Below, one piece after another: positions 20,787-51,628 of a stretch of 64,000 nucleotides of DNA. How positions within the stretch are numbered: position 1 is the first letter of the stretch; every line of letters starts with the position of its first letter. Below the pieces are notes generated by a model. The model did no database searches, was not told the origin of the DNA, and saw only the letters and a program-made list of their open reading frames with translations. The translations under genes and the position numbers were made by a program. This DNA is from Arthrobacter sp. B1805 (lineage in GTDB: Bacteria > Actinomycetota > Actinomycetes > Actinomycetales > Micrococcaceae): positions 1 to 64,000 of the forward strand of contig NZ_PJIQ01000009.1 in NCBI RefSeq assembly GCF_002929745.1, read 5' to 3'.

Positions 20787-20814
20787 CCCTAAGTTACCGG
20801 CGAGTAACCTAGGG
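20787..20814 (+). promoter_or_regulatory. Near-perfect 28-bp palindrome, TetR-type operator, over a TAACCT -10
   Basis: Left arm CCCTAAGTTAC (20787-20797), six-base spacer, right arm GTAACCTAGGG (20804-20814): ten of eleven arm positions match. TAACCT at 20805-20810 inside the right arm is a likely -10 hexamer, so a bound repressor would block transcription of the acyl-CoA dehydrogenase gene. The regulator is not encoded next to it. Confidence 0.75.
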
Positions 20815-35406: not shown

Positions 35407-35883
35407 TCAGGACGCCGTGCGCGGTCCGCGTGCGAGCAGCGGTTCCACGCGGAACGGGATGAGCTCTCCCATCGCGAGAGAGGTATCGCAGCGCTCCACA
35501 CCGTCGCACGCCAGGATCTTGCCGTTGATGCGGAAGAGATCCTCGGCATCCACGGCAACCACGCGGACGAGAATGTCCGCCTGACCCGTCAGTCCGAACG
35601 CCTCGATGACCTCGGGAATGGCGGCGATACTGTGCGTGATGGATGCCAGCTTCTGCTGCTGCACATGGACATGGATGAAGGCCATGAGGGGATAGCCCAG
35701 CGACACGGTGTTGATCCGCCGCTCGAACGAAAGGAATACGGCCTTCTTCTCGAGTTGCGCCATCCTTGCCTGCACCGTGTTCCGGGAGAGTCCCAGCTTC
35801 TGCGCGAGGGCGACGACGGTGCGCCGTGGGTCCTTCGAGATGGCCTGCAGGAGCCGCGTGTCGGTGAGGTCCAGGGGTTGCAT
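35407..35883 (-). CDS. Lrp/AsnC-family transcriptional regulator
   Basis: A 158-residue regulator from ATG 35883. The N-terminal winged HTH has DLTDTRLLQAISKDPRRTVV and LAQKLGLSRNTVQARMAQLE, and the C-terminal RAM (amino-acid-binding) domain has the GLTGQADILVRVVAVDAEDL stretch. It is divergent from the branched-chain keto acid dehydrogenase operon, in the position of BkdR-type regulators, so leucine, isoleucine or valine or their keto acids are the likely effectors. A palindrome with Lrp spacing lies in the intergenic region. Confidence 0.9.
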   Translation of the reverse strand: MQPLDLTDTRLLQAISKDPRRTVVALAQKLGLSRNTVQARMAQLEKKAVFLSFERRINTVSLGYPLMAFIHVHVQQQKLASITHSIAAIPEVIEAFGLTGQADILVRVVAVDAEDLFRINGKILACDGVERCDTSLAMGELIPFRVEPLLARGPRTAS

Positions 35884-35919
35884 AGTGCGCAACGCTAACA
35901 CGGGGACTGTCGTGCGGAT

Positions 35920-35933
35920 AGAGCAAGATGCTC
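35920..35933. promoter_or_regulatory. Candidate Lrp-type operator
   Basis: GAGCAAGATGCTC (35921-35933) is a perfect palindrome with a three-base centre. With the preceding A it has the AG-N9-CT spacing of Lrp sites. It lies 37 bases before the Lrp start and about 135 bases before the E1-alpha gene. Confidence 0.5.
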
Positions 35934-35967
35934 AGTCGAAGAGATAACAGTTGTGCCACCTGCTGCC

Positions 35968-35983
35968 TGTGAGTAGGGTCACA
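35968..35983 (+). promoter_or_regulatory. Perfect CRP/GlxR-like box upstream of the bkd operon
   Basis: TGTGAGTAGGGTCACA has both five-base arms of TGTGA-N6-TCACA intact. It lies 102 bases before the E1-alpha start at 36070. Confidence 0.7.
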
Positions 35984-36069
35984 ACCACTTCGGGTAATGG
36001 CGCCCGGAGCCCTCCCAGCCGTGCGGACAGCCGGCGGAGGGTTGTCTGCGAATGCGAAGGTTGCGTGCA

Positions 36070-37260
36070 ATGGCCCAGGACGAAGCCCGGCCAGGATCGG
36101 GATCAACCAGCGGTGACCACGGCTCCGGACCGGCGTCCGGAACAGTCCATCCGGGCGCGGCCCACGAGGGCGCGGACGAACTCGTCCAGCTCATCGATCC
36201 CCACGGCGTACGCCACGCAGATGTTCGATATGACGAGCTCGTGGCCGATGTCGACGGTCCGGCCCTGCGGCGACTCTACGAGGACATGGTGGTGGTGCGT
36301 CGCATTGATGCGGAGGCGACCGCTCTCCAGCGCCAGGGCGAGCTCGCGCTCTGGCCACCGTTGCTGGGGCAGGAGGCCGCGCAGATCGGGTCCGGTCGCG
36401 CACTGCGGGCCGACGACTTCGTCTTCTCCAGCTACCGCGAGAACGGCGTGGCGTATTGCCGGGGAGTCGATCTGACGGACATCCTCCGGGTCTGGCGCGG
36501 CAACGCCTCGTCCGGATGGGACCCGTACTCCATCAACATGGCGACCCCGCAGGTGATCATCGGAGCCCAGTCGCTGCATGCCACCGGCTACGCCATGGGC
36601 ATCATCCATGACGGCGCGGATTCCGTCGCCGTCGCCTACTTCGGCGACGGAGCAACGAGCCAGGGGGACGTCAACGAAGCGATGGTGTTCGCCGCGAGCT
36701 ACCAGGCGCCCGTCATCTTCTTCTGCCAGAACAACCACTGGGCCATCTCGGAGCCTGTGGGTCTCCAGGCCCACGTGCCGATCGCGCGCCGGGCGCCCGG
36801 TTTCGGCATTCCCTCCGTGCGTGTCGACGGCAATGACGTCCTCGCATGCCTGGCTGTCACGCGTGAGGCCCTCGCCCGTGCGCGCGCAGGTGGCGGTCCC
36901 ACCTTCATCGAGGCCGTGACCTACCGCATGGGCCCGCACACGACGGCGGATGATCCGACCCGCTACCGCGACCCGAACGAGCTCGAGGACTGGGCGGCCC
37001 GGGATCCGCTGGCACGGCTCGCGGCCCTGCTCGATTCCCTCGGCCTGCTCGACGCGGACTACGCCGATTCGGTGAAGGCCAAGGCGGACGCCACCGCCGC
37101 GACACTGCGCGAGGGCTGCCTGGCGATGCCGGAGCCGGCGCCGTCGGACGTCTTCAGGCATGTCTACAGCGAGCCGAACTCCTGGCTCGACCGCCAGCAG
37201 GACCATTACGAACGGTATCTCGCCTCCTTCGCCCAGGCGTCACAGGAAGGGTCCCGCTGA
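36070..37260 (+). CDS. bkdA: Branched-chain 2-oxo acid dehydrogenase E1 component, alpha subunit
   Basis: Thiamine-diphosphate-dependent decarboxylation of branched-chain keto acids, the entry step of leucine, valine and isoleucine breakdown. From ATG 36070 the protein is 396 residues. It carries the E1-alpha core with LWPPLLGQEAAQIGSGRAL, FSSYRENGVAY, and the ThDP motif GDGATSQGDVNEAM ending in CQNNHWAIS (GDG-x26-NN). ATG 36052 is an alternative start, six codons earlier. The first 50 residues are Gly/Ser-rich. Presence beside the leucine operon and the match to M. tuberculosis BkdA (Rv2497c) context favour branched-chain substrates over pyruvate. Confidence 0.9.
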   Translation: MAQDEARPGSGSTSGDHGSGPASGTVHPGAAHEGADELVQLIDPHGVRHADVRYDELVADVDGPALRRLYEDMVVVRRIDAEATALQRQGELALWPPLLGQEAAQIGSGRALRADDFVFSSYRENGVAYCRGVDLTDILRVWRGNASSGWDPYSINMATPQVIIGAQSLHATGYAMGIIHDGADSVAVAYFGDGATSQGDVNEAMVFAASYQAPVIFFCQNNHWAISEPVGLQAHVPIARRAPGFGIPSVRVDGNDVLACLAVTREALARARAGGGPTFIEAVTYRMGPHTTADDPTRYRDPNELEDWAARDPLARLAALLDSLGLLDADYADSVKAKADATAATLREGCLAMPEPAPSDVFRHVYSEPNSWLDRQQDHYERYLASFAQASQEGSR

Positions 37261-38282
37261 TGCCCACGATGACTTTCGGCCGAGCGATCAACGCAGGCCT
37301 TCGCCGCGCGATGGACGACGATCCGAAGGTGGTCCTGATGGGTGAGGACATCGGGAAGCTCGGAGGCGTCTTCCGCATCACGGACGGACTGCAGAAGGAC
37401 TTCGGGGCACACCGCGTGCTGGACACTCCGCTCGCCGAAGCCGGCATCATGGGTACCGCGGTCGGGCTGGCCTACCGCGGCTACCGCCCGGTGGTCGAGA
37501 TCCAGTTCGACGGGTTCATCTACCCGGCCTTCGACCAGATCGTCTGCCAGGTTGCCAAGCTGCACTACCGCACCCAGGGGGCCGTGAAGATGCCCATCAC
37601 CATCCGGGTGCCCTTCGGCGGCGGCATCGGTTCGCCCGAGCACCACTCCGAATCCCCCGAGGCCTACTTCACGCACACCTCAGGCCTGCGCGTGGTGAGT
37701 GTCTCGAACCCGCAGGACGCCTACACCATGATCCAGCAGGCCATCGCGAGCGACGATCCCGTGCTGTACTTCGAGCCCAAGCGCCGCTATCACGTCAAGG
37801 GCGAGGTGGACGAGGCGGCGCCGCCGTCGTCGGCCATGGGTGACGCGCGGGTGGTCGTCGAAGGCACCGACGTCACGCTCGTGGCCTACGGTCCGCTCGT
37901 CTCCACAGCCCGCGACGCCGCCATCGCAGCGTCGGACGACGGCATCTCGGTCGAGGTGATCGATCTCCGCTCCCTCGCGCCGATCGATTTCCGGACGGTC
38001 GAGGCGTCCGTCCGGAGGACGGGCCGGCTCGTCATCACGCACGAGGCCGCCCAGTCCGGCGGTCTCGGCGCGGAGATCGCCGCCAGCATCACGGAGCGGT
38101 GCTTCGACTACCTGGAGCACGCACCCGTGCGCGTCACCGGCTTCGACATCCCCTATCCGTACTCCAAGCTCGAGTTCCATCATCTGCCGGACCTCGACCG
38201 GATCCTCGACGGCGTGGACCGCGTGCTGCGTCGACCGAACTCACTCAGTGCACTCGACGCCGATGCGGCGGTGCAGCGATGA
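37260..38282 (+). CDS. bkdB: Branched-chain 2-oxo acid dehydrogenase E1 component, beta subunit
   Basis: Partner of the alpha subunit. The 340-residue protein has the transketolase pyrimidine-binding domain (RAMDDDPKVVLMGEDIGK; GTAVGLAYRGYRPVVEIQFD; VPFGGGIGSPEHHSESPEA) and a C-terminal transketolase-C domain (VEVIDLRSLAPIDF, RTGRLVITHEAAQSGG). The conserved His-His pair in PEHHSE is expected for the E1-beta active site. Its ATG overlaps the alpha stop by one base, which couples synthesis of the two subunits. Length is normal. Confidence 0.92.
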   Translation: MPTMTFGRAINAGLRRAMDDDPKVVLMGEDIGKLGGVFRITDGLQKDFGAHRVLDTPLAEAGIMGTAVGLAYRGYRPVVEIQFDGFIYPAFDQIVCQVAKLHYRTQGAVKMPITIRVPFGGGIGSPEHHSESPEAYFTHTSGLRVVSVSNPQDAYTMIQQAIASDDPVLYFEPKRRYHVKGEVDEAAPPSSAMGDARVVVEGTDVTLVAYGPLVSTARDAAIAASDDGISVEVIDLRSLAPIDFRTVEASVRRTGRLVITHEAAQSGGLGAEIAASITERCFDYLEHAPVRVTGFDIPYPYSKLEFHHLPDLDRILDGVDRVLRRPNSLSALDADAAVQR

Positions 38283-39823
38283 GTGCCTCGACGGACGCTA
38301 TGACGGGTGTGGTGACAGGCGCCGGAGCGGCCGGAGCGACGAAGGGACCGGCCGTTCCGGTCCGCGAATTCCGCCTACCCGACCTCGGGGAGGGACTGAC
38401 GGAGTCCGAGATCGTCCGGTGGCACATCGCCGAGGGCGACACCGTCGTGCTCAACCAGATCATCGCCGACGTCGAGACCGCCAAGGCCGTCGTGGAGTTG
38501 CCGTCCCCGTATGCCGGGAAGGTGGTGCGCCTGCACGTGGCGGCAGGGACCGTGGTCGACGTCGGGTCGCCGATCGTCTCGTTCGACGTCGCCGGGGACG
38601 TCGACGGTGCGGTACCTGGTCCGCATCCGGTCGCGGGCGTCGGTCCTGTTCCGCCGTCGGGTGCACGCGGCGGAGAAGTGCCTGCGAGGCGCGAGCCGAA
38701 CCTCGTGGGGTACGGGGCGGCTGTGGAGCAGGGCGGGCGTCCTCAGCGACGGAGCCGTACGATCGCGTCCATCGCGTCCGCCCAGCTGCCCGAGCGGGTG
38801 CAGTGCCAGGCGCACGCGCCGTCGTCGTCCGCGCCGGGGCAGCAGGAGCGCGGTCGACGGAACGGAGAGCGGCCACGGTCCACTCCGCCGGTCCGGAAGC
38901 TCGCGCGCGATCTCGGCATCTCCCTCGACGTGCTCACCGGCAGCGGTCCAGGTTCCCTGATCAAGCGCGCCGACGTGCTCGCTGCGTACCAGGGCACGGC
39001 CGGTGGACCGGAAGCCCCGACGCTGGCAGGTTCCGCGACCATCCCGTCAGCCATGTCGAGCGACCCTGCAGTCGCCGGGCTACCGACAGCGCCGCCACCT
39101 CCACAGGCCGGGCGGTCGTCACCGGGCGTGACGCGCACCCCGATCAAGGGGATGCGGAAGCACACGGCGGCAGCTATGGTCGCCAGTGCCTTCACGGCAC
39201 CGCACGTGACCGAGTTCCTGACCATCGACGTCACGCCGACCATGGACCTGCTCGCCGAACTGAGATCGAGCAGGGCATTCGAGGGGACGAGGATCACGCT
39301 CCTCGCCATCGTGTCGAAGGCGGTGTGCATCGCCGTTGCGCGGAACCCCACGCTCAACTCGTCGTGGGACGAGGAGTCGCAGGAGATCGTGCAGTACCCG
39401 TACGTGAACCTGGGCATCGCGGCGGCGACACCGCGCGGACTGCTCGTGCCGAACATCGCATCGGCCCACGCCATGACGCTGACGGACCTCGCGGTGGCTC
39501 TACGCTCGCTGACCGAGACGGCGCGTGCCGGCAGGACGCCTCCCGCCGATCTTGCGGGTGGGACGATCTCGATCACCAACATCGGCACCTTCGGAATCGA
39601 TGCCGGTACGCCGATCCTCAATCCCGGCGAGGCCGCGATCCTCGCCATGGGAGCCGTGCGGAGGACGCCGTGGGAGTACCAGGGGGCTGTCGCCCTCCGG
39701 TCCGTCCTGACGCTCAGCCTGTCCTTCGACCACCGTCTCGTCGACGGCGAGCAGGGGTCACGTTTCCTGGCCGACGTCGGCACCATCCTGCGGAACCCGG
39801 CGATGGTGCTGGCGATGGTCTGA
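38279..39823 (+). CDS. bkdC: Branched-chain 2-oxo acid dehydrogenase E2 (dihydrolipoamide acyltransferase)
   Basis: Transfers the acyl group from lipoate to CoA. The 514-residue protein has one N-terminal lipoyl domain with the lipoylated Lys69 in DVETAKAVVEL, a long Pro/Arg/Gly-rich linker (about residues 105-200), the peripheral-subunit-binding domain (VRKLARDLGISLDVLTGSGP, about 203-240), a second flexible linker, and the acyltransferase domain with catalytic His485 in FDHRLVDGEQ. It overlaps the E1-beta gene by four bases (ATGA). No E3 (lipoamide dehydrogenase) gene is nearby, so E3 must come from elsewhere in the genome. Confidence 0.92.
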   Translation: MSASTDAMTGVVTGAGAAGATKGPAVPVREFRLPDLGEGLTESEIVRWHIAEGDTVVLNQIIADVETAKAVVELPSPYAGKVVRLHVAAGTVVDVGSPIVSFDVAGDVDGAVPGPHPVAGVGPVPPSGARGGEVPARREPNLVGYGAAVEQGGRPQRRSRTIASIASAQLPERVQCQAHAPSSSAPGQQERGRRNGERPRSTPPVRKLARDLGISLDVLTGSGPGSLIKRADVLAAYQGTAGGPEAPTLAGSATIPSAMSSDPAVAGLPTAPPPPQAGRSSPGVTRTPIKGMRKHTAAAMVASAFTAPHVTEFLTIDVTPTMDLLAELRSSRAFEGTRITLLAIVSKAVCIAVARNPTLNSSWDEESQEIVQYPYVNLGIAAATPRGLLVPNIASAHAMTLTDLAVALRSLTETARAGRTPPADLAGGTISITNIGTFGIDAGTPILNPGEAAILAMGAVRRTPWEYQGAVALRSVLTLSLSFDHRLVDGEQGSRFLADVGTILRNPAMVLAMV

Positions 39824-39879
39824 AGGCGCAGCACGCCGCCGCACGAGCGGGTGGGCGCTTCCGCATCGTGCGGGAGTGC

Positions 39880-40347
39880 CTACGGCAGTTCGAGGATGAG
39901 TTCCCGGACGACCGCACCCCGTGCAGGTGCAAATCCCTGCGTCTCACCGACCTTCCGGAAGCCCCAGCGCTCGAGGATACGGATCGAGCTCACATTGTCG
40001 GCGACCGCCCGCGCTCGGATCGGCCGCTGGGTCACCTCGTTGAGGAACTGCCCGACCGCGGCCGTGGTGATGCCCTGGCCCCAGCGCGAGCGGTCGATCC
40101 AGTAGCTGATCTCGGGGGTCTCGTCATCGTTGTACGCCAGTATGCTGCCGACGACGTCGCCGTCGGAGAGGATGGTGCGCACCGTGATCCTGCTGTCATT
40201 GAGGATGTCCTGCCAGTGGTGGTCGAAGACTCCACGGTCCGACGGGTTCTTCGCGCCGAACGCGGCCATGTGGTTGGCGCTGGGGTCCAGCTGGTGCGAG
40301 AAGAACTCGTCGAGGTCGGAAGCTTCAACGGGACGTAGCGTGATCAC
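39880..40347 (-). CDS. GNAT-family N-acetyltransferase, RimJ/RimL-like
   Basis: A 155-residue single-domain acetyltransferase. The acetyl-CoA site is SRWGQGITTAAVGQFL (R-x-x-Q/G-x-G type) and the C-terminal part ADNVSSIRILERWGFRKVGE is typical of the Acetyltransf_3 group that acts on protein N-termini or small molecules. It converges with the bkd operon and is 111 bases downstream of the TetR gene on the same strand. It has no clear link to branched-chain metabolism. Confidence 0.85.
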   Translation of the reverse strand: MITLRPVEASDLDEFFSHQLDPSANHMAAFGAKNPSDRGVFDHHWQDILNDSRITVRTILSDGDVVGSILAYNDDETPEISYWIDRSRWGQGITTAAVGQFLNEVTQRPIRARAVADNVSSIRILERWGFRKVGETQGFAPARGAVVRELILELP

Positions 40348-40458
40348 AGCGGTACTTTCAGTCGGTGGAGTGGCCGGGCGGTCGGCGAGGCCGGAACTTC
40401 TCGTGGGTTCAGCGTACTAGGCAGCCAGGCCTCCCCGGAGGCAGGCCGCGCGCGGGGG

Positions 40459-41070
40459 TCATACGGTCAGTGCAGCCCAAGCCATGTCCTGCAGGAGATC
40501 CCGGAGCTGCGCCAGTTCCCGTCCCGACCCGGTGCCGTGCGCGGTGTGCGGGGTCGAGTTGATGAGGCCGAACACTGCATGCACTTTGCGCCGCAGGAGG
40601 GAACGGTCGGCGTCGGGCAGGTGGTCGGCGAGCTGGTCCACCCATACCTGGACGTAACTGCGCTGCAGCGAACGCACCGTTCGTTCGTCGTCGTGCGGCA
40701 GGGATGCCAGGTCACGATCCTGCACGCGGATGACGTCGGCGTTGTTCAGGGCGAACTCCACCTGGAAGCGGATGAGCGCCCGAAGCGCGTCCTCGGGGGA
40801 GGAGGCGTCGGCGGCTACGCTCCTCCCACCAACGAGCAGGTCCTCACTGACCCCCGTGAGGAGGGCGGAAAGCACCGACGGCTTGCCGGTGAAGTGGCGG
40901 TAGACAGCCGGTCCGCTGACCCCGGCAGCGGCGCCGAGGTCCTCGATGGACACCCCGTTGTACCCGCGGTCGGCGAACAGCTGGGCCGCAGCGTCGAGGA
41001 GTGCCGCGCGCCGGCTGGCCTTCGCGAGGCTTCGGCCGGTCACGCGGTCTTCCGTGGGCGGTGCCTCCAT
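40459..41070 (-). CDS. TetR-family repressor, positional counterpart of M. tuberculosis BkaR
   Basis: A 203-residue regulator from ATG 41070, which has GAGGA at a good distance; a longer frame from 41136 would run through the operator and is rejected. The HTH domain reads LLDAAAQLFADRGYNGVSIE, DLGAAAGVSGPAVYRHFTGK. The C-terminal domain ends in EL-x-LRDLLQDMAWAAL-type helices. It is divergent from the leucine operon with two operator copies between the genes. In M. tuberculosis the TetR gene Rv2506 (BkaR) represses the same gene set, so this is probably the local repressor and may respond to a branched acyl-CoA. Confidence 0.9.
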   Translation of the reverse strand: MEAPPTEDRVTGRSLAKASRRAALLDAAAQLFADRGYNGVSIEDLGAAAGVSGPAVYRHFTGKPSVLSALLTGVSEDLLVGGRSVAADASSPEDALRALIRFQVEFALNNADVIRVQDRDLASLPHDDERTVRSLQRSYVQVWVDQLADHLPDADRSLLRRKVHAVFGLINSTPHTAHGTGSGRELAQLRDLLQDMAWAALTV

Positions 41071-41113
41071 GCAGGTCCTCGTCGTCGGCAGGGGAGTGAT
41101 CCCCTCATTCTGA

Positions 41114-41142
41114 TGGACATCCAGGTTAATGACCACTAACCT
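41114..41142 (+). promoter_or_regulatory. Promoter of the leucine-degradation operon
   Basis: TGGACA (41114-41119), 17 bases, TAACCT (41137-41142). Spacing is ideal. Operator 1 covers the spacer and half the -10; operator 2 lies over the start site. Confidence 0.65.
41125..41140. promoter_or_regulatory. TetR operator 1 (GTTAA-N6-CTAAC)
   Basis: GTTAATGACCACTAAC, with outer bases AGG and CCT extending the symmetry. It overlaps the operon promoter between -35 and -10. Confidence 0.75.
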
Positions 41143-41149
41143 GAGTTCA

Positions 41150-41165
41150 GTTAACGATCGCTAAC
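41150..41165. promoter_or_regulatory. TetR operator 2 (GTTAA-N6-CTAAC)
   Basis: GTTAACGATCGCTAAC, symmetric except for one pair. It is centred 25 bases after operator 1, near two and a half helical turns, and just downstream of the expected start site. Confidence 0.75.
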
Positions 41166-41190
41166 CGATCAGTGCTTGAGGAAGTAGTCG

Positions 41191-42795
41191 ATGGAGACCC
41201 TTACTTCGAAGGTCGATCCGCTCTCACCGTCATTCACCGCCAACCACGCGGCGCAGGCTGAACTCATCGACGACCTGCGGCGTCGCCTCGCCACCACCGC
41301 CCTGGGCGGGCCGGAGGCGTCGCGCGAGCGCCACGTAGCCCGCGGCAAGCTGCTTCCCCGCGAGCGCATCGATCAGCTGCTCGACGACGGCAGTCCCTTC
41401 CTCGAGATCGCCCCGCTCGCCGCGAACGGCATGTACGACGACGAGTGCCCGGGTGCCGGTGTCATCGCCGGTATCGGCCTCGTGCACGGCCGCCATGTGC
41501 TGGTCATCTCGAACGACGCCACGGTCAAGGGCGGCACCTACTACCCGATGACCGTCAAGAAGCACCTCCGGGCGCAGGAGATAGCGCTCGAGAACCACCT
41601 TCCATGCGTGTACCTCGTCGACTCGGGCGGTGCGTTCCTGCCGCGCCAGGACGAGGTGTTCCCCGACCGCAACCACTTCGGGCGCATCTTCTACAACCAG
41701 GCGACCATGTCCGCCCGGAAGATCCCGCAGATCGCCGCCGTGCTGGGAAGCTGCACCGCCGGAGGAGCGTACGTACCGGCGATGAGCGACGAGACCGTGA
41801 TCGTCCGGAACCAGGGCACGATCTTTTTGGGCGGTCCACCCCTCGTGAAGGCCGCGATCGGCGAGGTCGTGACCGCGGAGGAGCTGGGCGGGGGCGACAT
41901 CCACTCGCGCATCTCCGGCGTCACCGACCACCTCGCGGAGAGCGACCAGCACGCGCTGGAGATCGTGCGGGACATCATCGCCACGCTTCCTGCTCCCTCG
42001 TTGGCGATCCCGCCCGTCGAGGTCACGGAACCGGCCGTCGACCCGGAGGAGCTGTACGGTGCCGTCCCGATCGACGTCAACGCGTCCTACGACGCCCGCG
42101 AGATCATCGCGCGCATCGTCGACGGATCCCTCTTCCACGAGTTCAAGCGCGAGTACGGCACCACGCTCATCACCGGATTCGCGACGATCCACGGTCACCG
42201 GGTCGGCATCGTCGCGAACAACGGCGTGCTGTTCAGCGAGTCCGCGCTCAAGGGGGCGCATTTCATCGAGCTCTGCGACCAGCGCGGCATCCCGCTGGTG
42301 TTCCTGCAGAACCTCAGCGGCTTCATGGTGGGCAGGGACTACGAAGCCGGCGGCATCGCGAAGAACGGTGCCAAGATGGTCACCGCCGTCGCGACCTGCG
42401 GGGTGCCCAAGCTGACCGTCGTCGTCGGCGGGTCCTTCGGCGCCGGCAACTACTCGATGTGCGGCCGCGCGTTCTCCCCGCGCTTCCTGTGGATGTGGCC
42501 CGCCGCCCGTATCTCCGTCATGGGAGGGAGCCAGGCGTCGTCCGTCCTGGCCACCGTGAAACGGGACCAGCTGGAGGCCCGCGGGGAGCAGTGGTCGCTC
42601 GAGGACGAGGACGCCTTCCGCGCCCCGATCCGCGCCCAGTACGAGGCCCAGGGCAATCCCTACTACTCGACGGCACGGCTCTGGGACGACGGCGTCATCG
42701 ACCCCGCCGACACCAGGACCGTCCTCGGTCTCGCGCTGGACGTCTGCGCCGGCGCACCCCTGCCCGATACCTCCTTCGGCCTCTTCCGGATGTGA
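41191..42795 (+). CDS. accD1: Methylcrotonyl-CoA carboxylase-type carboxyltransferase (beta subunit, AccD1-like)
   Basis: Carboxylates 3-methylcrotonyl-CoA with the biotin-bearing partner encoded next. The 534-residue protein has the two crotonase-like halves of acyl-CoA carboxyltransferases. The MCC-type blocks are clear: [60 protein letters not shown] and [10 protein letters not shown]. These favour methylcrotonyl-CoA over acetyl- or propionyl-CoA. GAGGAAG precedes the ATG. It is the first gene of the seven-gene operon and ends four bases before the alpha gene. Confidence 0.93.
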
Positions 42796-42799
42796 CTCG

Positions 42800-44914
42800 A
42801 TGACACCCCACCAGACGAAACCCGATCCGATGACGGACAGCGAGTCCCGGACCACCGCTTCGTGGCCCTTCGACACCGTCCTGGTCGCCAATCGGGGGGA
42901 GATCGCATGCCGTGTCATCCGTTCCGTCCGCGCACTCGGATTGCGCTCGGTCGCCGTCTACAGTGACGCCGATGCCGGAGCCCGCCATGTCCTCGAGGCA
43001 GATCTCGCGGTACGGATCGGTGGTGCAGCGCCTTCCGAGAGCTACCTGTCCATCCCTGCGGTCGTCGAGGCCTGCCGCCGCACAGGGGCGGGAGCGGTTC
43101 ACCCGGGCTACGGGTTCCTCAGCGAGAACGCCTCCTTCGCGGCAGCCCTGCAGGAGGCCGGCATCGTCTTCATTGGCCCGTCCGTGCACGCGCTCGACGT
43201 GATGGGGGACAAGATCCGGTCCAAGAACCACGTCGCGACCTCCGGGGTGCCCGTGGTGCCAGGCATCGCCGAACCCGGCCTGACCGACGACGATCTCCTG
43301 CGCGCGGCCGGCGACGTCGGCTTCCCGATGCTGATCAAGCCCTCGGCAGGCGGAGGTGGAAAGGGCATGCACGCCGTCCACCGGGCGGAGGACCTCGCGG
43401 GGGTGCTCGGAACCGCCCGACGCGTCGCCGCACGCGCCTTCGGTGACGACACCCTGTTCCTCGAACGGCTCATCGAACGGCCGCGGCACATCGAGGTGCA
43501 GGTACTGGCCGACAGCCACGGCACGGTGATCCACCTCGGCGAGCGCGAGTGCTCCCTACAGCGCCGCCACCAGAAGGTGATCGAGGAGGCGCCGTCGGCC
43601 CTGCTGGACGAGTCCACACGCCGCCGAATCGGCGAGGCGGCGTGCAACGCCGCCCGGAGCGTCGACTACACGGGAGCCGGGACGGTCGAGTTCCTGGTCT
43701 CCGATACCGCGCCGGACGAATTCTTCTTCATGGAGATGAACACGCGCCTGCAGGTGGAGCACCCCGTCACGGAGCTCGTGACGGGTGTGGACCTCGTCGA
43801 ATGGCAGATCCGCATCGCCGCCGGCGAGAGGCTGCCACTCGCGCAGGACGACGTCGTCCTCTCGGGTCACGCCGTCGAGGCGCGCGTCTACGCCGAGAAC
43901 CCCGAGGGCGGTTTCCTCCCGTCCACGGGCCGCATCCTGGCACTGTCCGAACCGACGGGGGACGGCATCCGCGTCGACAGCTCCCTGCTGCCCGGTGGGG
44001 CCGTCTCGTCGTCGTACGATCCGATGCTCGCCAAGGTGGTCGCCTGGGGGGCGGATCGCGCGGAGGCACTGGAGCGCCTGGACGCAGCGCTCGCCGGCAC
44101 GGTGGTGCTCGGGGTGGACACGAACATCGAGTACCTGCGCCTGCTCCTGAACGACGACGACGTGCGCTCAGCGCGGCTCGATACCACCCTGATCGAACGC
44201 AAGCTCCCGGACCTCGCGTTCAGGCCCATCACCGCGCCCGACCTCGCGCTCGCCGCCGTCCTGCTGGTCGAATCGACACCGTCGGTCCGCAGCGGGTCAC
44301 CGTGGCACCGCGGGAACGGCTTCCGGATCGGCGCGGTGCGTCCGCGTGCCGTGCCGCTCGAATTCCAGGGCGGATCGGAGACGGTGGAACTCGTGGCGTC
44401 AGGCACGGGATGGACCGCGACCGTCGGGGGACGATCGCTGAGCGTCCGGGTCGACGAGCACGGTGGCGCCACGATCGACGGCGTGCGCTCAAGCAGCCAG
44501 CACCACGTCGACGGCGACACCGTCTGGTTGGCTCAGGCCGGCTGGTCTTCCCGGCTGCGCCGCCCCGGGAGGCGCGAACTCCTCGACGCGGCTCTCTCAC
44601 GCATCACCCGCGAGGAGGGCACTGCCGATCCACTGGTGCGCAGTCCCATGCCGGGGACCGTCGTGTCCGTGTCCGTCGAGGAGGGCGCCACAGTGGAGGC
44701 GGGGGACGTCCTCCTCGCCGTCGAGGCCATGAAGATGGAGCACCAGCTCACTGCCGCGGTGTCCGGCGTCGTCCGCCTGTCCCTCAAGCCGGGGGACCTC
44801 GTCAGGGCCCAGCAGGTCGTCGCGGCCATCGACCCCACTCCGGGCGCGAGCTCCTCGACAGCACGTCCTCCAGCCGGTGCTCCAGCCAGTCCCACGGAAG
44901 GGAACGCAGCATGA
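42800..44914 (+). CDS. accA1: Acyl-CoA carboxylase biotin-carrying subunit (methylcrotonyl-CoA carboxylase alpha, AccA1-like)
   Basis: The 704-residue protein joins a biotin carboxylase domain (residues about 20-465; [37 protein letters not shown]-type seen as [33 protein letters not shown]) to a middle MCC-alpha region and a C-terminal biotinyl domain with the biotin Lys645 in [12 protein letters not shown] and bicarbonate are used to load biotin. ATG 42830 is an alternative start and neither ATG has a strong Shine-Dalgarno sequence; coupling to the upstream gene four bases away is likely. The last residues are a Pro/Ala-rich tail. Confidence 0.93.
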
Positions 44915-46083
44915 ACTTCGAACTGAGTGAGGAATACCAGGACCTCGTGGACACCGTGCGCGAGTTCGCGGACGAAGTGGTGGCCCCGGTGTCGGCGAGG
45001 CACGACGCCGAGCACAGCTTCCCGTACGAGGTCGTGAAGCAGATGGGGGACATGGGGCTCTTCGGGCTTCCGTTCCCCGAGGAGTACGGGGGCATGGGCG
45101 GCGACTACTTCGCCCTGTGCCTGGCGCTCGAGCAACTGGCCCGCGTGGACCAGTCGGTGGCCATCACCCTGGAGGCCGGGGTCTCCCTCGGCGCCATGCC
45201 GGTGTACCGCTTCGGCACGGAGGAGCAGAAGCAGCAGTGGCTGCCCTCGCTCGCCGCGGGGACGGCGCTCGGCGGCTTCGGCCTCACGGAATCCGAGGCC
45301 GGTTCGGACGCGTCGGGTACGAAGACGACCGCGGTGCTCGAGGAAGGCCCGCACGGGGCCGAGTGGGTCGTCAACGGCACGAAGGAATTCATCACCAACT
45401 CCGGGACCGACATCACCTCCCTCGTCACGGTCACCGCGGTCACGGGCACGTCCGAACGGCCCGACGGCACGGTCAAGAAGGAGATTTCCACCATCCTCGT
45501 GCCGTCCGACACTCCCGGCTTCACGGCGGAGAAGGCCTACAACAAGGTGGGCTGGAACGCGTCCGACACGCACCCCCTCACCCTGAAGGACGTCCGGGTC
45601 CCCGAGGCCAACCTGCTCGGCACGCGTGGTCGGGGCTATGCCAACTTCCTGCAGATCCTCGACGAGGGCCGCATCGCCATCGCGGCGCTGGCTACCGGTG
45701 CGGCGCAGGGCTGCGTGGAGCAGTCCATCAGGTACGCCGGCGAGCGCATGGCGTTCGGCAGCACCATCGGCGCCTACCAGTCCATCCAGTTCAAGATCGC
45801 CCGCATGCAGGTCCGCGCCCATACTGCGCGCCTGGCCTACTACGACGCCGCGTCGCGCATGCTCGCGGGTAAGCCGTTCAAGACGCAGGCCTCCATCGCG
45901 AAGCTGGTGGCCGGCGAGGCCGCGATGGACAACGCCCGCGACGCCACGCAGATCTTCGGCGGCTACGGTTTCATCAACGAGTTCGTGGTGTCCAGGCACT
46001 ACCGTGACTCGAAGATCCTCGAGATCGGCGAGGGGACCACGGAGGTCCAGCTCATGCTGATCGCACGGGAACTCGGGCTCTAG
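44911..46083 (+). CDS. Acyl-CoA dehydrogenase, FadE19/isovaleryl-CoA dehydrogenase role
   Basis: Oxidises a short branched acyl-CoA, most likely isovaleryl-CoA to 3-methylcrotonyl-CoA, with FAD. The 390-residue protein shows [29 protein letters not shown], the arginine-bearing REDSKI-type seen as [18 protein letters not shown], and ends MLIARELGL. The Glu of GEGTTEVQ sits where short-chain dehydrogenases have their catalytic base; the classical isovaleryl-CoA enzyme has its base elsewhere, so the specificity is inferred from the operon. It overlaps the alpha subunit gene by four bases and corresponds in position to fadE19 of M. tuberculosis. Confidence 0.9.
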
Positions 46084-46139
46084 CCTGCTGCGGCCTACGG
46101 GCGGCGACCTCGGGACATCGGCACGGCGGAGGAGGAGCA

Positions 46140-46916
46140 GTGATCGACAAGGTGGTTGGTAGCGCGGCGGAGGCGGTCGCGGACATACCCGACGGCGCAT
46201 CCCTCGCCGTCGGTGGCTTCGGACTGTGCGGGATCCCGGTGGCCCTGATAGAAGCGCTGCACGCGCAGGGGACCACGGACCTCGAGACGGTCAGCAACAA
46301 CTGCGGCGTGGATGACTGGGGGCTCGGCATCCTGCTGGCCGACCACCGCATCCGCAGGACGGTCAGTTCGTACGTGGGGGAGAACAAGGAGTTCGCGCGC
46401 CAGTACCTCTCAGGCGAACTCGAGGTCGAGCTCACGCCGCAGGGCACCCTCGCCGAGAAGCTCCGCGCGGGAGGCGCGGGCATCCCCGCGTTCTATACGA
46501 CCGCAGGAGTGGGAACCCAGGTCAGCGAGGGCGGGCTGCCCCAGCGGTACGACGACGCCGGCAAGGTCGCGGTGGCGTCGAAGCCGAAGGAGGTGCGGTC
46601 CTTCCAGGGGGTGCAGTACGTGCTCGAGGAGTCCCTGCGGCCGGACTACGCACTGGTGCACGCCTGGAAGGGCGACCGCCACGGGAACCTCGTGTTCCGC
46701 GCGACGGCGATGAACTTCAATCCGCTCGCCGCACAGGCCGGCCGGATCACGATCGCGGAGGTGGAGGAGCTCGTCGAACCGGGCGATCTCGATCCCGGGC
46801 AGGTGCACACGCCCGGCATCTTCGTCCAGCGGGTGGTCGTGGCGCCCGACACCGAGAAACGCGTCGAGAAGCGCACGGTCTCGCTCGCCGCCGACCGCAC
46901 GCCGGAAGGAGCATGA
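46140..46916 (+). CDS. scoA: 3-oxoacid (succinyl-CoA:acetoacetate) CoA-transferase, subunit A
   Basis: Activates acetoacetate released by the lyase to acetoacetyl-CoA using succinyl-CoA. The 258-residue protein has the family I CoA-transferase alpha signature: the glycine-rich [50 protein letters not shown] and [16 protein letters not shown]. The GTG start follows GGAGGAGGAG. A 56-base gap separates it from the dehydrogenase, the largest gap in the operon. It overlaps subunit B by four bases. Confidence 0.94.
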
Positions 46917-47569
46917 CCATGGCGCTGACCCGCAACGAGCTCGCAGCCCGGGTGGCACGGGAGCTGGAGAACGGCCAGTACGTCAACCTCGGCATCGGGA
47001 TGCCCACCCTCATTCCGAACTACGTCCCCGAGGGTGTCGAGGTGGTGCTGCACTCCGAGAACGGGATCCTCGGCGTCGGACCGTACCCGGCGGAGGAGGC
47101 CCTCGATCCCGACCTCATCAACGCGGGCAAGGAGACCGTCACGGCCAATCCGGGAGCCGCCTTCTTCGACTCCGCGGCATCGTTCGGCATGATCCGCGGC
47201 GGGCACGTCGACGTCGCGGTGCTCGGAGCCATGGAGGTCGCGCAGAACGGAGACCTCGCGAACTGGATGGTCCCCGGCAAGATGGTCAAGGGGATGGGTG
47301 GGGCCATGGACCTCGTCTTCGGGGCCAAGCGCCTGATCGTCATGATGGAGCACGTGGACCGTGCGGGTCGTCCGAAGATCGTCGAGTCCTGCTCGCTGCC
47401 GCTCACGGGGAAGGGGTGCGTCGACAGGATCGTCACCGACCTCGCGGTGATCGACGTCGAGCCCGACGGCCTGGTGCTGCGCGAGACCGCGCCCGGCGTC
47501 ACCGTCGAGGAAGTCATCGCCGCAACCGGTGCGCCCCTGCGGATCGATCTCGGGGACGCGACAGCATGA
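46913..47569 (+). CDS. scoB: 3-oxoacid CoA-transferase, subunit B
   Basis: Carries the catalytic Glu of the enzyme, expected in [11 protein letters not shown] (SENG motif, near residue 47). Other family I beta features are [33 protein letters not shown] and [17 protein letters not shown]. The 218-residue length is standard. The start is ATG 46913 within ATGA overlap; ATG 46919 is also possible. Confidence 0.94.
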
Positions 47570-48087
47570 GTGGTCACGGTCCGGGTGGGCGTCGCGTGAT
47601 CGAGCAGAGGGGGCTGTACTTCGACGAGCTCGAGGTGGGAGCCGTGTATGCCCACCGCCCCGGGCGGACGCTGACCGAGGCCGACAACGTCCTGTTCACG
47701 ACCCTGACGATGAACACGCAGGCGCTGCACCTCGACGCAGCCTGGTCGGCGGAGCAACCTTTCGGGCAGCGCCTCGTCAACTCGATGCTGACGTTGGCCA
47801 CGCTCGTCGGCCAGTCGGTCACCCAGCTCACGCAGGGCACCATCGTGGCGCAGCTGGGTCTCACCGACGTCGCCTTCCCGAAGCCGCTCTTCCACGGAGA
47901 CACCCTGTACACCGAGACCGAGATCATCGCCGTCCGCCCCTCGTCCTCCCGGCCGGGGCAGGGCGTCGTGTCGATGTCCCACACGGGGCGCAACCAGCAC
48001 GGCGACGTCGTGGCGACGGCCACCCGGTCCGTGCTCATGTGGTCGTCGACCACACCGTCGACCGCACAGCGGGAGGGGACGGCATGA
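47566..48087 (+). CDS. MaoC-like hydratase, probable (R)-specific 3-methylglutaconyl-CoA hydratase
   Basis: A 173-residue hot-dog-fold protein. [27 protein letters not shown] leads to the MaoC hydratase region with D and H residues in the [20 protein letters not shown] block. In M. tuberculosis the matching gene Rv2499c lies between the CitE-like lyase and fadE19, so hydration of 3-methylglutaconyl-CoA to (R)-HMG-CoA is the most likely reaction; itaconyl-CoA hydration is the alternative. It overlaps scoB and the next gene by four bases each. Confidence 0.85.
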
Positions 48088-48905
48088 GCGGGACCGTCCT
48101 TGGGCCGGCCCTGCTGTTCTGCCCTGCCGACCGGCCGGAGCGCTATGCCAAGGCCGCCGATCGCGCGGACACCGTGATCCTCGACCTCGAGGACGCCGTC
48201 GCACCCGCCGCCAAGGAGGCGGCCCGCGCGGCGCTCGCCGGCTCCGCCCTCGATCCCGAGCGGACCGTCGTGCGCCTCAACGCCGCCGGTAGTGCCGACT
48301 TCGCGCTCGACTGCGCCGCTCTCCGCCGGACGGGATACCGCACCGTCATGCTCGCCAAGACGGAGTCGCCCGAGGACATCGCCGCCGTCCGGACCGCACT
48401 CGGTGACGTCGGGGTGATCGCCCTGTGCGAGACGGCACGCGGTGTCGTCCAGGCCGCCGACATCGCCCGGGCCGACGGCGTCACCGCGCTGATGTGGGGG
48501 GCGGAGGACCTCGTCGCCTCGCTCGGCGGGACGTCGAGCCGGACCTCGCGCGGCACCTACCGGGCCGTGGCCCTCCAGGCGCGCTCGCAGGTACTCCTCG
48601 CGGCGGGAGCGGCGGGGAGGGGCGCCATCGATGCCGTCTACGTGGACATCGCGGACATCGAGGGCCTCGAGGAGGAAGCCGACGACGCCGCCGCCTCGGG
48701 TTTCTCCGCCAAGGCCTGCATCCATCCCGCGCAGGTCTCCGCGATCCGCGCCGCCTTCGCCCCGGACGAGGCCGAGGTGGAGCACGCGAGGTCCCTCCTG
48801 GCAGCCGCCGAGAGCGAGCGCGGCGTCTTCACGTACCAGGGGCGCATGGTCGATGAACCGATCCTCCGCCACGCGCGCAGCATCATCGCGAGGGCGGGCG
48901 CTTAG
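48084..48905 (+). CDS. CitE-like acyl-CoA lyase (HpcH/HpaI family), probable (R)-HMG-CoA / citramalyl-CoA lyase
   Basis: A 273-residue TIM-barrel lyase with LFCPADRPERYAKAADRADTV, the metal-site Glu/Asp block ILDLEDAVAPAAK, RLNAAG, LCETARGV, MWGAEDLVASLG and the CoA-site AKACIHPAQV. In M. tuberculosis Rv2498c this protein cleaves (R)-HMG-CoA and citramalyl-CoA, serving leucine and itaconate breakdown; no DRE-TIM HMG-CoA lyase is present in this operon, so it would supply that step here. It overlaps the MaoC gene by four bases and ends the operon. Confidence 0.88.
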   Translation: MSGTVLGPALLFCPADRPERYAKAADRADTVILDLEDAVAPAAKEAARAALAGSALDPERTVVRLNAAGSADFALDCAALRRTGYRTVMLAKTESPEDIAAVRTALGDVGVIALCETARGVVQAADIARADGVTALMWGAEDLVASLGGTSSRTSRGTYRAVALQARSQVLLAAGAAGRGAIDAVYVDIADIEGLEEEADDAAASGFSAKACIHPAQVSAIRAAFAPDEAEVEHARSLLAAAESERGVFTYQGRMVDEPILRHARSIIARAGA

Positions 48906-49010: not shown

Positions 49011-50288
49011 ATGGATTTCAGCAACCCCTCCCGGCAGCACCGGCGCGTCTCCATCCTCGGTTCCACGGGCTCCATCGGTACCCAGGCGCTCGACGTCATC
49101 GCGGCGGCACCGGAGCGCTTCAGTGTTGCCGGGCTCAGCGCCGGCGGGCGGAACCTGGAACTCCTCGCGCGGCAGGCCGTCGCCGTCCGGGCTCCCGCCG
49201 TCGGTGTGGCCTCCGCGTCGGAGGCTGAGCTCGAGCGCGCGATCGGACAGGCCGCGGACGACGCCGGTGTGTCGGGGTACACCCCGGACCTGTTCGCGGG
49301 CGACGGCGCCGCAGCGAGGGTGGCGGCCTGGCCCGACGCCGACGTCGTGCTCAACGGCATCACCGGATCGATCGGCCTGGAACCGACCCTCGCCGCGCTC
49401 GCGGCCGGTCACCTGCTCGCACTCGCCAACAAGGAATCGCTCATCGCCGGGGGAGCGCTCGTGCGCGCGGCGGCGGCCCCCGGGCAGCTCGTCCCGGTCG
49501 ACTCCGAGCACTCCGCGATCGCGCAGGCCCTTCGTGGCGGAACAGCGGACGAGGTGGACCGGCTCGTCCTGACGGCCTCCGGTGGCCCGTTCCGTGGCAT
49601 GACACGCTCTCAGCTGCAGCGCGTCACCCCGGCCCAGGCACTCGCGCACCCCACCTGGGACATGGGGCGCGTTATCAGTACCAACTCGGCGTCGATGGTC
49701 AACAAGGCGCTCGAGGTGATCGAGGCGCACCTCCTCTTCGACATCCCCCTGGACCGCATCGACGTCGTCGTGCATCCGCAGTCCGTGATCCATTCCATGG
49801 TCCAGTTCATCGACGGCTCCACGCTGGCCCAGGCCTCGCCGCCGGACATGCGCCTCCCTATCGCCCTGGGCATCGGTTGGCCGTTCCGCGTTCCGGGCTC
49901 AGCGCGCGCCTGCGACTGGACGCGGCCGGCCGAATGGACCTTCGAGCCTCTGGACGAGCAGGCATTTCCCGCGATCGCTCTGGCAAAGCGGGCCGCCGCC
50001 GAGGGCGGCACGCGCATGGCCGTGTACAACGCTGCGAACGAGGAGGCCGTCGACGCCTTCCACAGGGGAGCCATAGGTTTCAATGACATCGTGGACACGG
50101 TGTCCGCCGTCGTCGACGAGCAGCGTGCGAGCGAGGCTGCGAGCGACGCGGGCAGGAAGCTCGGCCTCGACGCCGTCCTCGAGGCGGAGCGCTGGGCACG
50201 CAGGAGCGCCCGGGTCCGTTGTGGCCTCGTGGAGTCGCCGCTACCCGCTGCGGTAGCCGGTTCGGAAGGCCAGAAGGAAAAGCTGTGA
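49011..50288 (+). CDS. dxr: 1-deoxy-D-xylulose 5-phosphate reductoisomerase
   Basis: Second step of the MEP isoprenoid pathway, making 2-C-methyl-D-erythritol 4-phosphate with NADPH and a divalent metal. The 425-residue protein has the dinucleotide motif [29 protein letters not shown], the metal/substrate site [19 protein letters not shown], and the loop [20 protein letters not shown]. Length is normal for Actinobacteria, with a short extra C-terminal tail. It overlaps the rseP start by four bases. Confidence 0.97.
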
Positions 50289-51628
50289 CTGTTCTCTTGT
50301 TCATCGCCGGAGTGCTCTTCGTCGTCGTCGGGATCGGCGCGTCGATCGCACTGCACGAGGTGGGACACCTGGTGCCCGCGAAGCTCTTCCGTGTCCGCGT
50401 GACGCAGTACATGGTCGGGTTCGGTCCCACCCTCTGGTCCAGGCGGCGCGGCGAGACCGAGTACGGACTCAAGGCGATCCCGGCCGGCGGGTACGTCTCC
50501 ATGGTGGGCATGTTCCCGCCCGCCACCACGGAGACCGGTACCGTACGGCAGTCCAGCACCGGCGTCTTCCAGCAACTGGTCACGGATGCGCGGCAGGCGG
50601 CAGCGGAGCAGCTGCAGCCGGGGGACGAGGACCGCGTCTTCTACAAGCTGCCCATCTGGAATCGGATCATCATCATGCTGGGCGGACCGCTGATGAACCT
50701 CCTGATCGGTACGGTGCTGTTCGCGGTGCTGATCATGGGATTCGGCACCGCGCAGGCCACCACCACGATCGCGTCCGTGTCCGAGTGCGTCGTCCCGGCG
50801 AGCCAGCAGGCCGCGACCGGCCAGACCGAGTGCACGCCCGATGATCCCGCCGCACCTGCCTACGAGGCGGGCCTGCTGCCAGGGGATCGCGTCATCGCCT
50901 TCGACGGTCGGCAGGTGACCGACTGGAACGAACTGTCGGGCTGGATCAGGGATGCGGCCGGCCGCGAGGTCGGCATCACCGTGGTGCGCGACGGCGAGAC
51001 CATCGACTCCAGGATCACGCCGCTGCTGACGGAGCGGCCCGTCGCCACCGCGGACGGTACGGCCGAGGTCGACGACGACGGCAACGCCGTGACGCAGGAG
51101 GTCGGGTTCATCGGTGTCGGCTCCACTCAGGAGCTCGTCCCGCAACCCGCGAGCGAGGTGCTGCCGGCGGTCGGCGATTCGCTGGCCCGGGTGGCCGGAG
51201 TGGTGCTGAACCTCCCGCAGCGCGTGGTCGAGGTGGGGCAGGCGGCCTTCTCGGATGCTCCGCGTGATCCCGAGGGGCCGATCAGCGTCGTGGGCGTCGG
51301 AAGGATCGCGGGGGAGATCTCCGCGATGGAAGAGATACCGGTGGCGTCACGAGCCGCGACACTCATCGGGCTTGTCGCGGGCGTCAACCTCGCGCTGTTC
51401 GTCTTCAACCTGATCCCTCTGCTGCCGCTCGACGGAGGGCACGTGGCGGGTGCGCTCTGGGAAGGATTCCGCCGCGGCGTCGCCCGTGTGTTCGGACGGC
51501 CGGATCCGGGACCGTTCGACATGGCCCGGTTGCTGCCGTTGACCTATGCCGTCGCGATCCTGCTCATGGGGATGGGTGTTCTGCTGATCTACGCCGACAT
51601 CGTGAAGCCGGTCGATCTGTTCGGCTAA
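50285..51628 (+). CDS. rseP: RIP metalloprotease RseP/Rip1 (site-2 protease)
   Basis: Intramembrane zinc protease that cuts anti-sigma factors and other membrane proteins. From GTG 50285 the protein is 447 residues. The zinc motif HEVGH lies in the first helix, the PDZ domain covers about residues 190-290 ([18 protein letters not shown]), and the third zinc ligand is in PLLPLDGGH near residue 380. GAAGGA precedes the GTG, and the GTGA overlap with dxr shows coupling. The dxr-rseP pair is conserved across Actinobacteria. Confidence 0.96.

Follow-up and report, generated by a model that had tools for sequence, protein, structure and literature searches.

How does a bacterium break down leucine when its leucine operon carries no classical lyase for 3-hydroxy-3-methylglutaryl-CoA (HMG-CoA)? 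The question is raised by positions 35407..48905 of the window, by which we mean the whole 64,000-nucleotide stretch of Arthrobacter sp. B1805 DNA that was analysed, in contig C79 of a 3.80 Mb genome of 79 contigs rated 100% complete. The locus holds bkdABC and the genes for a BkaR-like TetR regulator, both subunits of 3-methylcrotonyl-CoA carboxylase (MCC), an acyl-CoA dehydrogenase, the CoA-transferase subunits ScoA and ScoB, a MaoC-type hydratase and a CitE-type lyase, and every gene named in the original prediction, made from the sequence letters alone, is present. That prediction proposed leucine and isovalerate breakdown through MaoC and an Rv2498c-type lyase under a BkaR-type TetR, and it is supported by the missing classical lyase and the kept active-site residues. 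We consider it very likely that this is an inducible leucine/isovalerate operon, controlled by a BkaR-type TetR repressor and using the (R)-HMG-CoA route. The genes, active-site residues, operator-like sites and lack of a recognisable classical lyase are read directly from the DNA. The cluster as such belongs to the known (R)-HMG-CoA type, while the conservation of its operators, a site before ilvE, the coupling of MaoC to CitE and the exchange of the lyase end go further.

For the pathway we infer the substrates, stereochemistry and induction, with the order of steps taken from mycobacterial biochemistry. Leucine would be transaminated by IlvE, encoded elsewhere, and then decarboxylated by bkdABC to isovaleryl-CoA, which the acyl-CoA dehydrogenase is expected to convert to 3-methylcrotonyl-CoA. 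MCC would carboxylate this to 3-methylglutaconyl-CoA, MaoC would turn the latter into (R)-HMG-CoA, and the CitE-type lyase would release acetyl-CoA and acetoacetate, the acetoacetate passing through ScoAB to acetoacetyl-CoA. The published work used here is represented by excerpts of four papers (PMC3920632, PMC4347857, PMC6689899 and PMC9636800). In the excerpt of PMC6689899, Rv2498c cleaves (R)-HMG-CoA, its loss stops growth on leucine, and this route of leucine breakdown in M. tuberculosis is described as unprecedented. A partial literature survey found no description of the (R)-route outside mycobacteria.

The CitE-type lyase aligns with Rv2498c (6aq4) across residues 5-272 of 273 (291 bits, 58% identity). 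The eight active-site residues compared are those named in the excerpt of PMC6689899 (R64, E112, M133, G135, A136, E137, D138 and V181 in Rv2498c numbering), and all are kept, as Arg64, Glu116, Met137, Gly139, Ala140, Glu141, Asp142 and Val185, respectively. By CitE identity the closest named relatives are Arthrobacter sp. B0490 (83%), Leaf234 (81%) and A. agilis (80 and 83%), in a ranking from which records of the window's own genome may be excluded. Three further PF03328 proteins are encoded in the genome; two look by eye like HpaI aldolases, and the third (L010) is distant and CitE-like, 31% identical and without the Met, Ala and Glu of the CitE pocket.

As originally stated, no DRE-TIM HMG-CoA lyase is present in the operon, and the whole-genome check proposed with that statement found none either. 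PF00682 has only two matches in the genome, which we read from sequence and frame length as 2-isopropylmalate synthase (L001) and pyruvate carboxylase (a 1169-aa frame), and NF004283, the HMG-CoA lyase model, has no match in the genome at E ≤ 1e-20. Because no DRE-TIM HMG-CoA lyase was found in the genome, the (R)-HMG-CoA route, with MaoC followed by the CitE-type lyase, is the best reading.

The best match of MaoC is the beta-methylmalyl-CoA dehydratase 8hgn (81 bits), followed by other hot-dog hydratases. As reference we used the motif S-G-D-x-N-P-L-H, whose Asp we take to be the catalytic residue of hydratase 2; Asn replaces this Asp in 12 of 12 aligned orthologs, with an invariant His five residues on (N39 and H44 in the fragment aligned, which correspond to positions 50 and 55 in the full 173-aa MaoC), and the second domain of 8hgn carries Asn and His with the same spacing. 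The orthologs come from operons of several families and include one locus of f22, a group that we take, from its operon order, to be mycobacteria. Co-occurrence was counted across 394 genomes of the class, taken to be the same in the CitE, MaoC and HMG-CoA lyase searches as class, number and handles agree, with limits for MaoC (1e-53) and HMG-CoA lyase (1e-92) that were set after the match lists had been viewed. A CitE ortholog (E ≤ 1e-45) is found in 88 genomes, and a close MaoC (E ≤ 1e-53) in 85 of these versus 6 of the 306 others, counts that are not independent events because genomes of one family share history. MaoC adjoins CitE in all 20 CitE loci of one locus comparison; two CitE loci of a 40-locus set gave no MaoC match, namely L093, which is truncated where its contig stops, and L100, which is not truncated. 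Such coupling fits a dedicated pair of (R)-hydratase and (R)-lyase.

The genes from MCC beta through MCC alpha, acyl-CoA dehydrogenase, ScoA, ScoB and MaoC to CitE form one run of seven on the plus strand. Four of the six junctions (MCC alpha/dehydrogenase, ScoA/ScoB, ScoB/MaoC and MaoC/CitE) overlap by 4 bases, and the run is therefore very probably one transcript; gaps of 4 and 56 bases separate MCC beta from MCC alpha and the dehydrogenase from ScoA, respectively, and a promoter/terminator scan found no elements. Arthrobacter shares this operon with Microbacterium and further actinobacteria: in a set of 80 named loci, the order MCC beta, MCC alpha, dehydrogenase, (ScoAB), MaoC, CitE is kept in 59 of 67 full-length loci, with ScoAB between dehydrogenase and MaoC in 29, absent there in 30, and the remaining 8 otherwise different. 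None of the 80 stretches retrieved showed an HMG-CoA lyase. To our knowledge, most operon-bearing actinobacteria are not known as pathogens, and if our reading is true, the (R)-route would be ordinary metabolism of the group, not one pathogen's speciality, and harmless strains would serve for its study.

The carboxylase-first order had been thought to differ from that of mycobacteria. This claim fails, and a new gene order was rejected: in M. smegmatis, bkaR is followed by accD1-accA1-fadE19-hydratase-citE-bkdABC (Table 2 in the excerpt of PMC3920632), and the two f22 loci L094 and L095 agree with this order over the part that they cover, with ScoAB standing before MCC beta in L095. The mycobacterial bkaR regulon (accD1-accA1-fadE19-Rv2499c-citE-bkdABC, with scoAB in some species), in which AccD1-AccA1 is the MCC (excerpt of PMC4347857), shares with Arthrobacter its enzymes and a divergent gene for a BkaR-like TetR with two GTTA-N8-TAAC sites. 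Arthrobacter departs from it in three ways: scoAB is inserted between the dehydrogenase and MaoC genes, ilvE is preceded by a BkaR-type site, and bkdABC lies upstream, where it probably forms its own unit next to an Lrp gene.

The TetR gene, 50-52% identical to the gene at its place in the f22 loci, diverges from MCC beta across two GTTA-N8-TAAC sites, the first of which overlaps the TetR frame, as annotated, at its 5' end. The pattern was spotted in the sequence before comparison with PMC3920632, whose excerpt gives GTTA(N)T(N4)A(N)TAAC in two copies in the bkaR promoter; the full 16-bp core occurs in the first operator only, the second having C and G at the two inner positions. The TetR, a putative BkaR, scores under the cut-off of NF050111, the SACE_7040 family model (243.5 against 250 bits). 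GTTA-N8-TAAC occurs three times in the window versus 0.02 expected, and 11 times in the whole genome versus once for a reversed control. At least one site lies in the gap of every divergent BkaR locus scored: 22/22 in the 40-locus set (BkaR identity >40%), 64/64 in the 80-locus set (at least 38%) and 10/10 among 20 HMG-CoA lyase loci (at least 36%). These 96 loci are not all independent, some genomes being in more than one set, and same-strand BkaR-like genes (L193, L221, L225) were left out of the scoring. In L078 the gap between bkaR and the operon is 2.3 kb.

One of the genomic sites separates leuB from the branched-chain aminotransferase gene ilvE (NF009897, 494.7 bits, cut-off 307). Among the best 30 of 96 genomes matching ilvE, which all belong to the genus and include the window's own, an exact site lies within 200 bases upstream in 23 loci, as seven different 16-mers; two further loci have a one-mismatch site and five have none. 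Most of these sites deviate from the published core at one or both of its inner bases, and their distance to the leuB stop is more constant than that to ilvE. As core bases are missing, the leuB distance is kept and related genomes share sites by descent, ilvE is only a candidate further BkaR-type target.

Several observations weigh against the (R)-route reading. In A. agilis UMCV2 (L137), no MCC or dehydrogenase match lies in the 8 kb upstream of ScoA, and MaoC is missing beside CitE in 2 of the 80 loci (Paeniglutamicibacter, L147 and L156). At a looser limit (E ≤ 1e-35), MaoC is found in 27 of the 306 CitE-less genomes and in 87 of the 88 with CitE. The acyl-CoA dehydrogenase has the Glu of the common C-terminal EGT motif (alignment with 5ol2), whereas classical isovaleryl-CoA dehydrogenases use another Glu, so its action on isovaleryl-CoA is expected from operon context and analogy. 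An NF004283 match co-occurs with CitE in 40/88 genomes at E ≤ 1e-75 and 13/88 at E ≤ 1e-92, so CitE alone does not show which lyase works there; the corresponding figures in CitE-less genomes are 222/306 and 197/306. All 262 of these HMG-CoA lyase matches are over the family cut-off, and the E limit may hide a few weaker ones. In f22, CitE is accompanied by an HMG-CoA lyase match in many genomes; these matches are generally weak (about 1e-76 to 1e-89), apart from two stronger ones. Finally, E1 alpha passes the TIGR03181 pyruvate dehydrogenase cut-off, its nearest solved chain is a pyruvate dehydrogenase E1 with branched-chain enzymes next, and the genome encodes five PF00378 crotonases, one of which could hydrate methylglutaconyl-CoA. 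A simple rule that CitE excludes HMG-CoA lyase was rejected on the counts at E ≤ 1e-75, the trend being partial.

Some of these loci have features of their own. L137 has ScoA-ScoB-MaoC-CitE and is a rearranged or reduced operon. In L147 and L156, CitE comes immediately after MCC alpha, and a frame that looks TetR-like by eye lies upstream in the same orientation. A second locus of the CitE-bearing genome G420 (L088) has an HMG-CoA lyase with a MaoC-like gene (55%) directly after it, a mixed arrangement.

The reading of E1 and E2 as the cell's pyruvate dehydrogenase was rejected, AceE (1372.5 bits) being present elsewhere in the genome, so that they are not needed for that function. bkdABC had been counted as part of the cluster, which is right as to adjacency; it probably forms a transcription unit of its own, beside a divergent Lrp gene, and the window scan found no GTTA-N8-TAAC site before it. 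It is conceivable, if on the unlikely side, that bkdABC stands under Lrp control and makes the branched-chain acyl-CoA primers of membrane fatty acids, so that only the MCC-to-CitE unit would be catabolic. Arthrobacter membranes are rich in branched fatty acids, and E1a/E1b lie downstream of citE in L094/L095 and upstream of bkaR in the window, a difference in place that along with the separate control speaks for this alternative. An Lrp match stands ahead of E1a in 12 of the 80 loci, many of which end before that point. Against the primer role, E1/E2 genes lie beside the operon in many Microbacteriaceae and Micrococcaceae loci of the 80-locus set, and bkdAB is derepressed with the operon in M. 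smegmatis, bkdC not significantly (excerpt of PMC3920632); the primer and catabolic roles are also compatible.

That the lyase and MaoC serve mainly itaconate (through citramalyl-CoA) or another short branched acid, with leucine secondary, we regard as improbable. For Rv2498c, (S)-citramalyl-CoA is almost as good a substrate as (R)-HMG-CoA (Table 1 in the excerpt of PMC6689899), a CoA-transferase lies within the operon, and the best NCBIfam match of CitE is RipC, though at 163.6 bits, far under the cut-off of 375. The operon is nevertheless headed by a methylcrotonyl-CoA carboxylase, needless for itaconate, ScoA and ScoB score as 3-oxoacid CoA-transferase, no dedicated itaconate gene is present in the cluster, and sister operons with the same regulator and carboxylase carry HMG-CoA lyase instead.

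The proposed search for a crotonase-type hydratase gave a divided answer, since five such proteins are present and none is clearly LiuC: one is MenB over its cut-off, one has an unassigned subfamily match over cut-off, one sits within a 1069-aa frame that is FadB-like by eye, and two are found among phenylacetate (paa) genes, of which PaaZ, PaaA and PaaE score over cut-off. At L213 6390-9237 (G000:C38), crotonase L004 stands together with a CaiB-type CoA-transferase and an amidohydrolase in a putative catabolic cluster. A classical (S)-route, in which a crotonase elsewhere makes (S)-HMG-CoA, an unrecognised lyase cleaves it, and MaoC and CitE serve otherwise, is scarcely credible: it could draw on L004, which has no role assigned, and on the NF004283 cut-off being passed in 26 of 196 relatives, including 3 of 37 other genus members (G022, G026, G029), but the missing DRE-TIM lyase, the MenB, FadB-like and paa character of most of the crotonases and the kept MCC beta-to-CitE order speak against it.

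Across actinobacteria, the end of the pathway appears to be swappable. Among 31 loci around or holding HMG-CoA lyase (11 from the 40-locus set and the 20 HMG-CoA lyase loci), this gene directly follows MCC alpha, with divergent BkaR, site and MCC beta, in 13; it follows MCC without divergent BkaR in three (L220, L221, L225) and is not beside a close MCC beta in 15. From its family, the lyase of these BkaR-type operons is presumably (S)-specific. In a quick tree of 54 MCC beta sequences (the window, every fifth of the 80-locus set and all passing from the remaining loci), four changes between lyase types are needed, two forced by well-supported branches, where shuffled labels average 14; support is by SH-like approximate likelihood ratio test (SH-aLRT) only, several branches are long, and 18 of 50 inner branches are open. 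These changes suggest that, beside a shared carboxylase, one lyase end has probably been exchanged for the other on more than one occasion.

Comparison systems place the two ends side by side. LiuC is a crotonase and LiuE a DRE-TIM lyase. Pseudomonas aeruginosa liuRABCDE shares the overall chemistry (excerpt of PMC9636800) under another regulator, and gives the classical route through these two enzymes. The Streptomyces liu cluster (sco2775-sco2779; acdH, MCC, HMG-CoA lyase) shares the pathway to methylglutaconyl-CoA but, in the same excerpt, has a classical (S)-type lyase and no hydratase in the cluster; operons so composed in f35/f37 genomes likewise show the divergent BkaR gene and its sites, and HMG-CoA lyase comes directly after MCC alpha in them. 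The contrast is partly visible in print, since a supplementary figure of PMC4347857 (in excerpt) draws an S. avermitilis operon beside the mycobacterial one and PMC9636800 describes the hydratase-less cluster; no published statement of a lyase-end swap was found in the partial literature survey. We lean, with modest confidence, towards one BkaR-controlled actinobacterial leucine operon in two stereochemical versions, its end swapped more than once between MaoC-CitE/(R) and classical lyase/(S) with regulator, operators and carboxylase kept; the Arthrobacter regulon would include ilvE, and MaoC would be a dedicated (R)-route hydratase of Asn/His rather than Asp/His type. The presence of two lyase types within a single kind of operon offers a testable case of a change in handedness without a change in regulator.

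Features of the leucine locus in window coordinates
Feature	Position	Strand	Basis
Lrp/AsnC-type regulator, divergent from bkd genes	35407..35901	-	NCBIfam AsnC/Lrp models 48-55 bits, all under curated cut-offs
E1 alpha of 2-oxoacid dehydrogenase, most likely branched-chain (bkdA)	36052..37260	+	PF00676
E1 beta (bkdB)	37260..38282	+	PF02779, PF02780
E2 acyltransferase (bkdC)	38279..39823	+	PF00198, PF00364, PF02817; ATG start chosen for 4-base overlap with E1 beta
GNAT-like gene between the two units, probably unrelated	39880..40347	-	no NCBIfam match at E ≤ 1e-10
TetR regulator, BkaR-like	40459..41136	-	PF00440; NF050111 243.5 bits, cut-off 250
BkaR-type operator GTTAATGACCACTAAC	41125..41140	.	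exact match to GTTA(N)T(N4)A(N)TAAC
Second operator-like site GTTAACGATCGCTAAC	41150..41165	.	outer half-sites match; two inner motif bases differ
MCC beta, accD1 type	41191..42795	+	PF01039; 74% identical to positional counterpart in f22 loci L094/L095
MCC alpha, accA1 type	42800..44914	+	biotin carboxylase domains; PF21139 BT_MCC_alpha 48.5 bits, cut-off 31
Acyl-CoA dehydrogenase, FadE19 type by position	44911..46083	+	nearest solved chain 7szv, 637.8 bits
3-oxoacid CoA-transferase subunit A (ScoA)	46140..46916	+	TIGR02429 237 bits, cut-off 128.5
3-oxoacid CoA-transferase subunit B (ScoB)	46913..47569	+	TIGR02428 340 bits, cut-off 243.55
MaoC-type hydratase, Rv2499c position, 173 aa	47566..48087	+	Asn50/His55 at Asp/His places of hydratase-2 enzymes
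CitE-type lyase, Rv2498c-like	48084..48905	+	PF03328; 58% identical to Rv2498c; 8/8 checked residues identical

The flanking genes, DXR and an M50 protease downstream of citE (49011-51628) and an SSF transporter upstream, look unrelated to the cluster. At 40% identity, DXR and the M50 protease follow citE in most Arthrobacter loci of the 80-locus set and in no Microbacterium locus, which places the operon at a different chromosomal position in each. The gene at 39880..40347, presumably a GNAT, has no NCBIfam match at E ≤ 1e-10 and is kept beside BkaR in many Arthrobacter loci of that set. A second class of palindrome, GTTACYSGYSRGTAAC, occurs at window positions 20793-20808, at G000:C8:102392 and at C72:42688, one copy lying near a FadB-like frame of C8, and possibly marks another TetR regulon, of fatty-acid oxidation.

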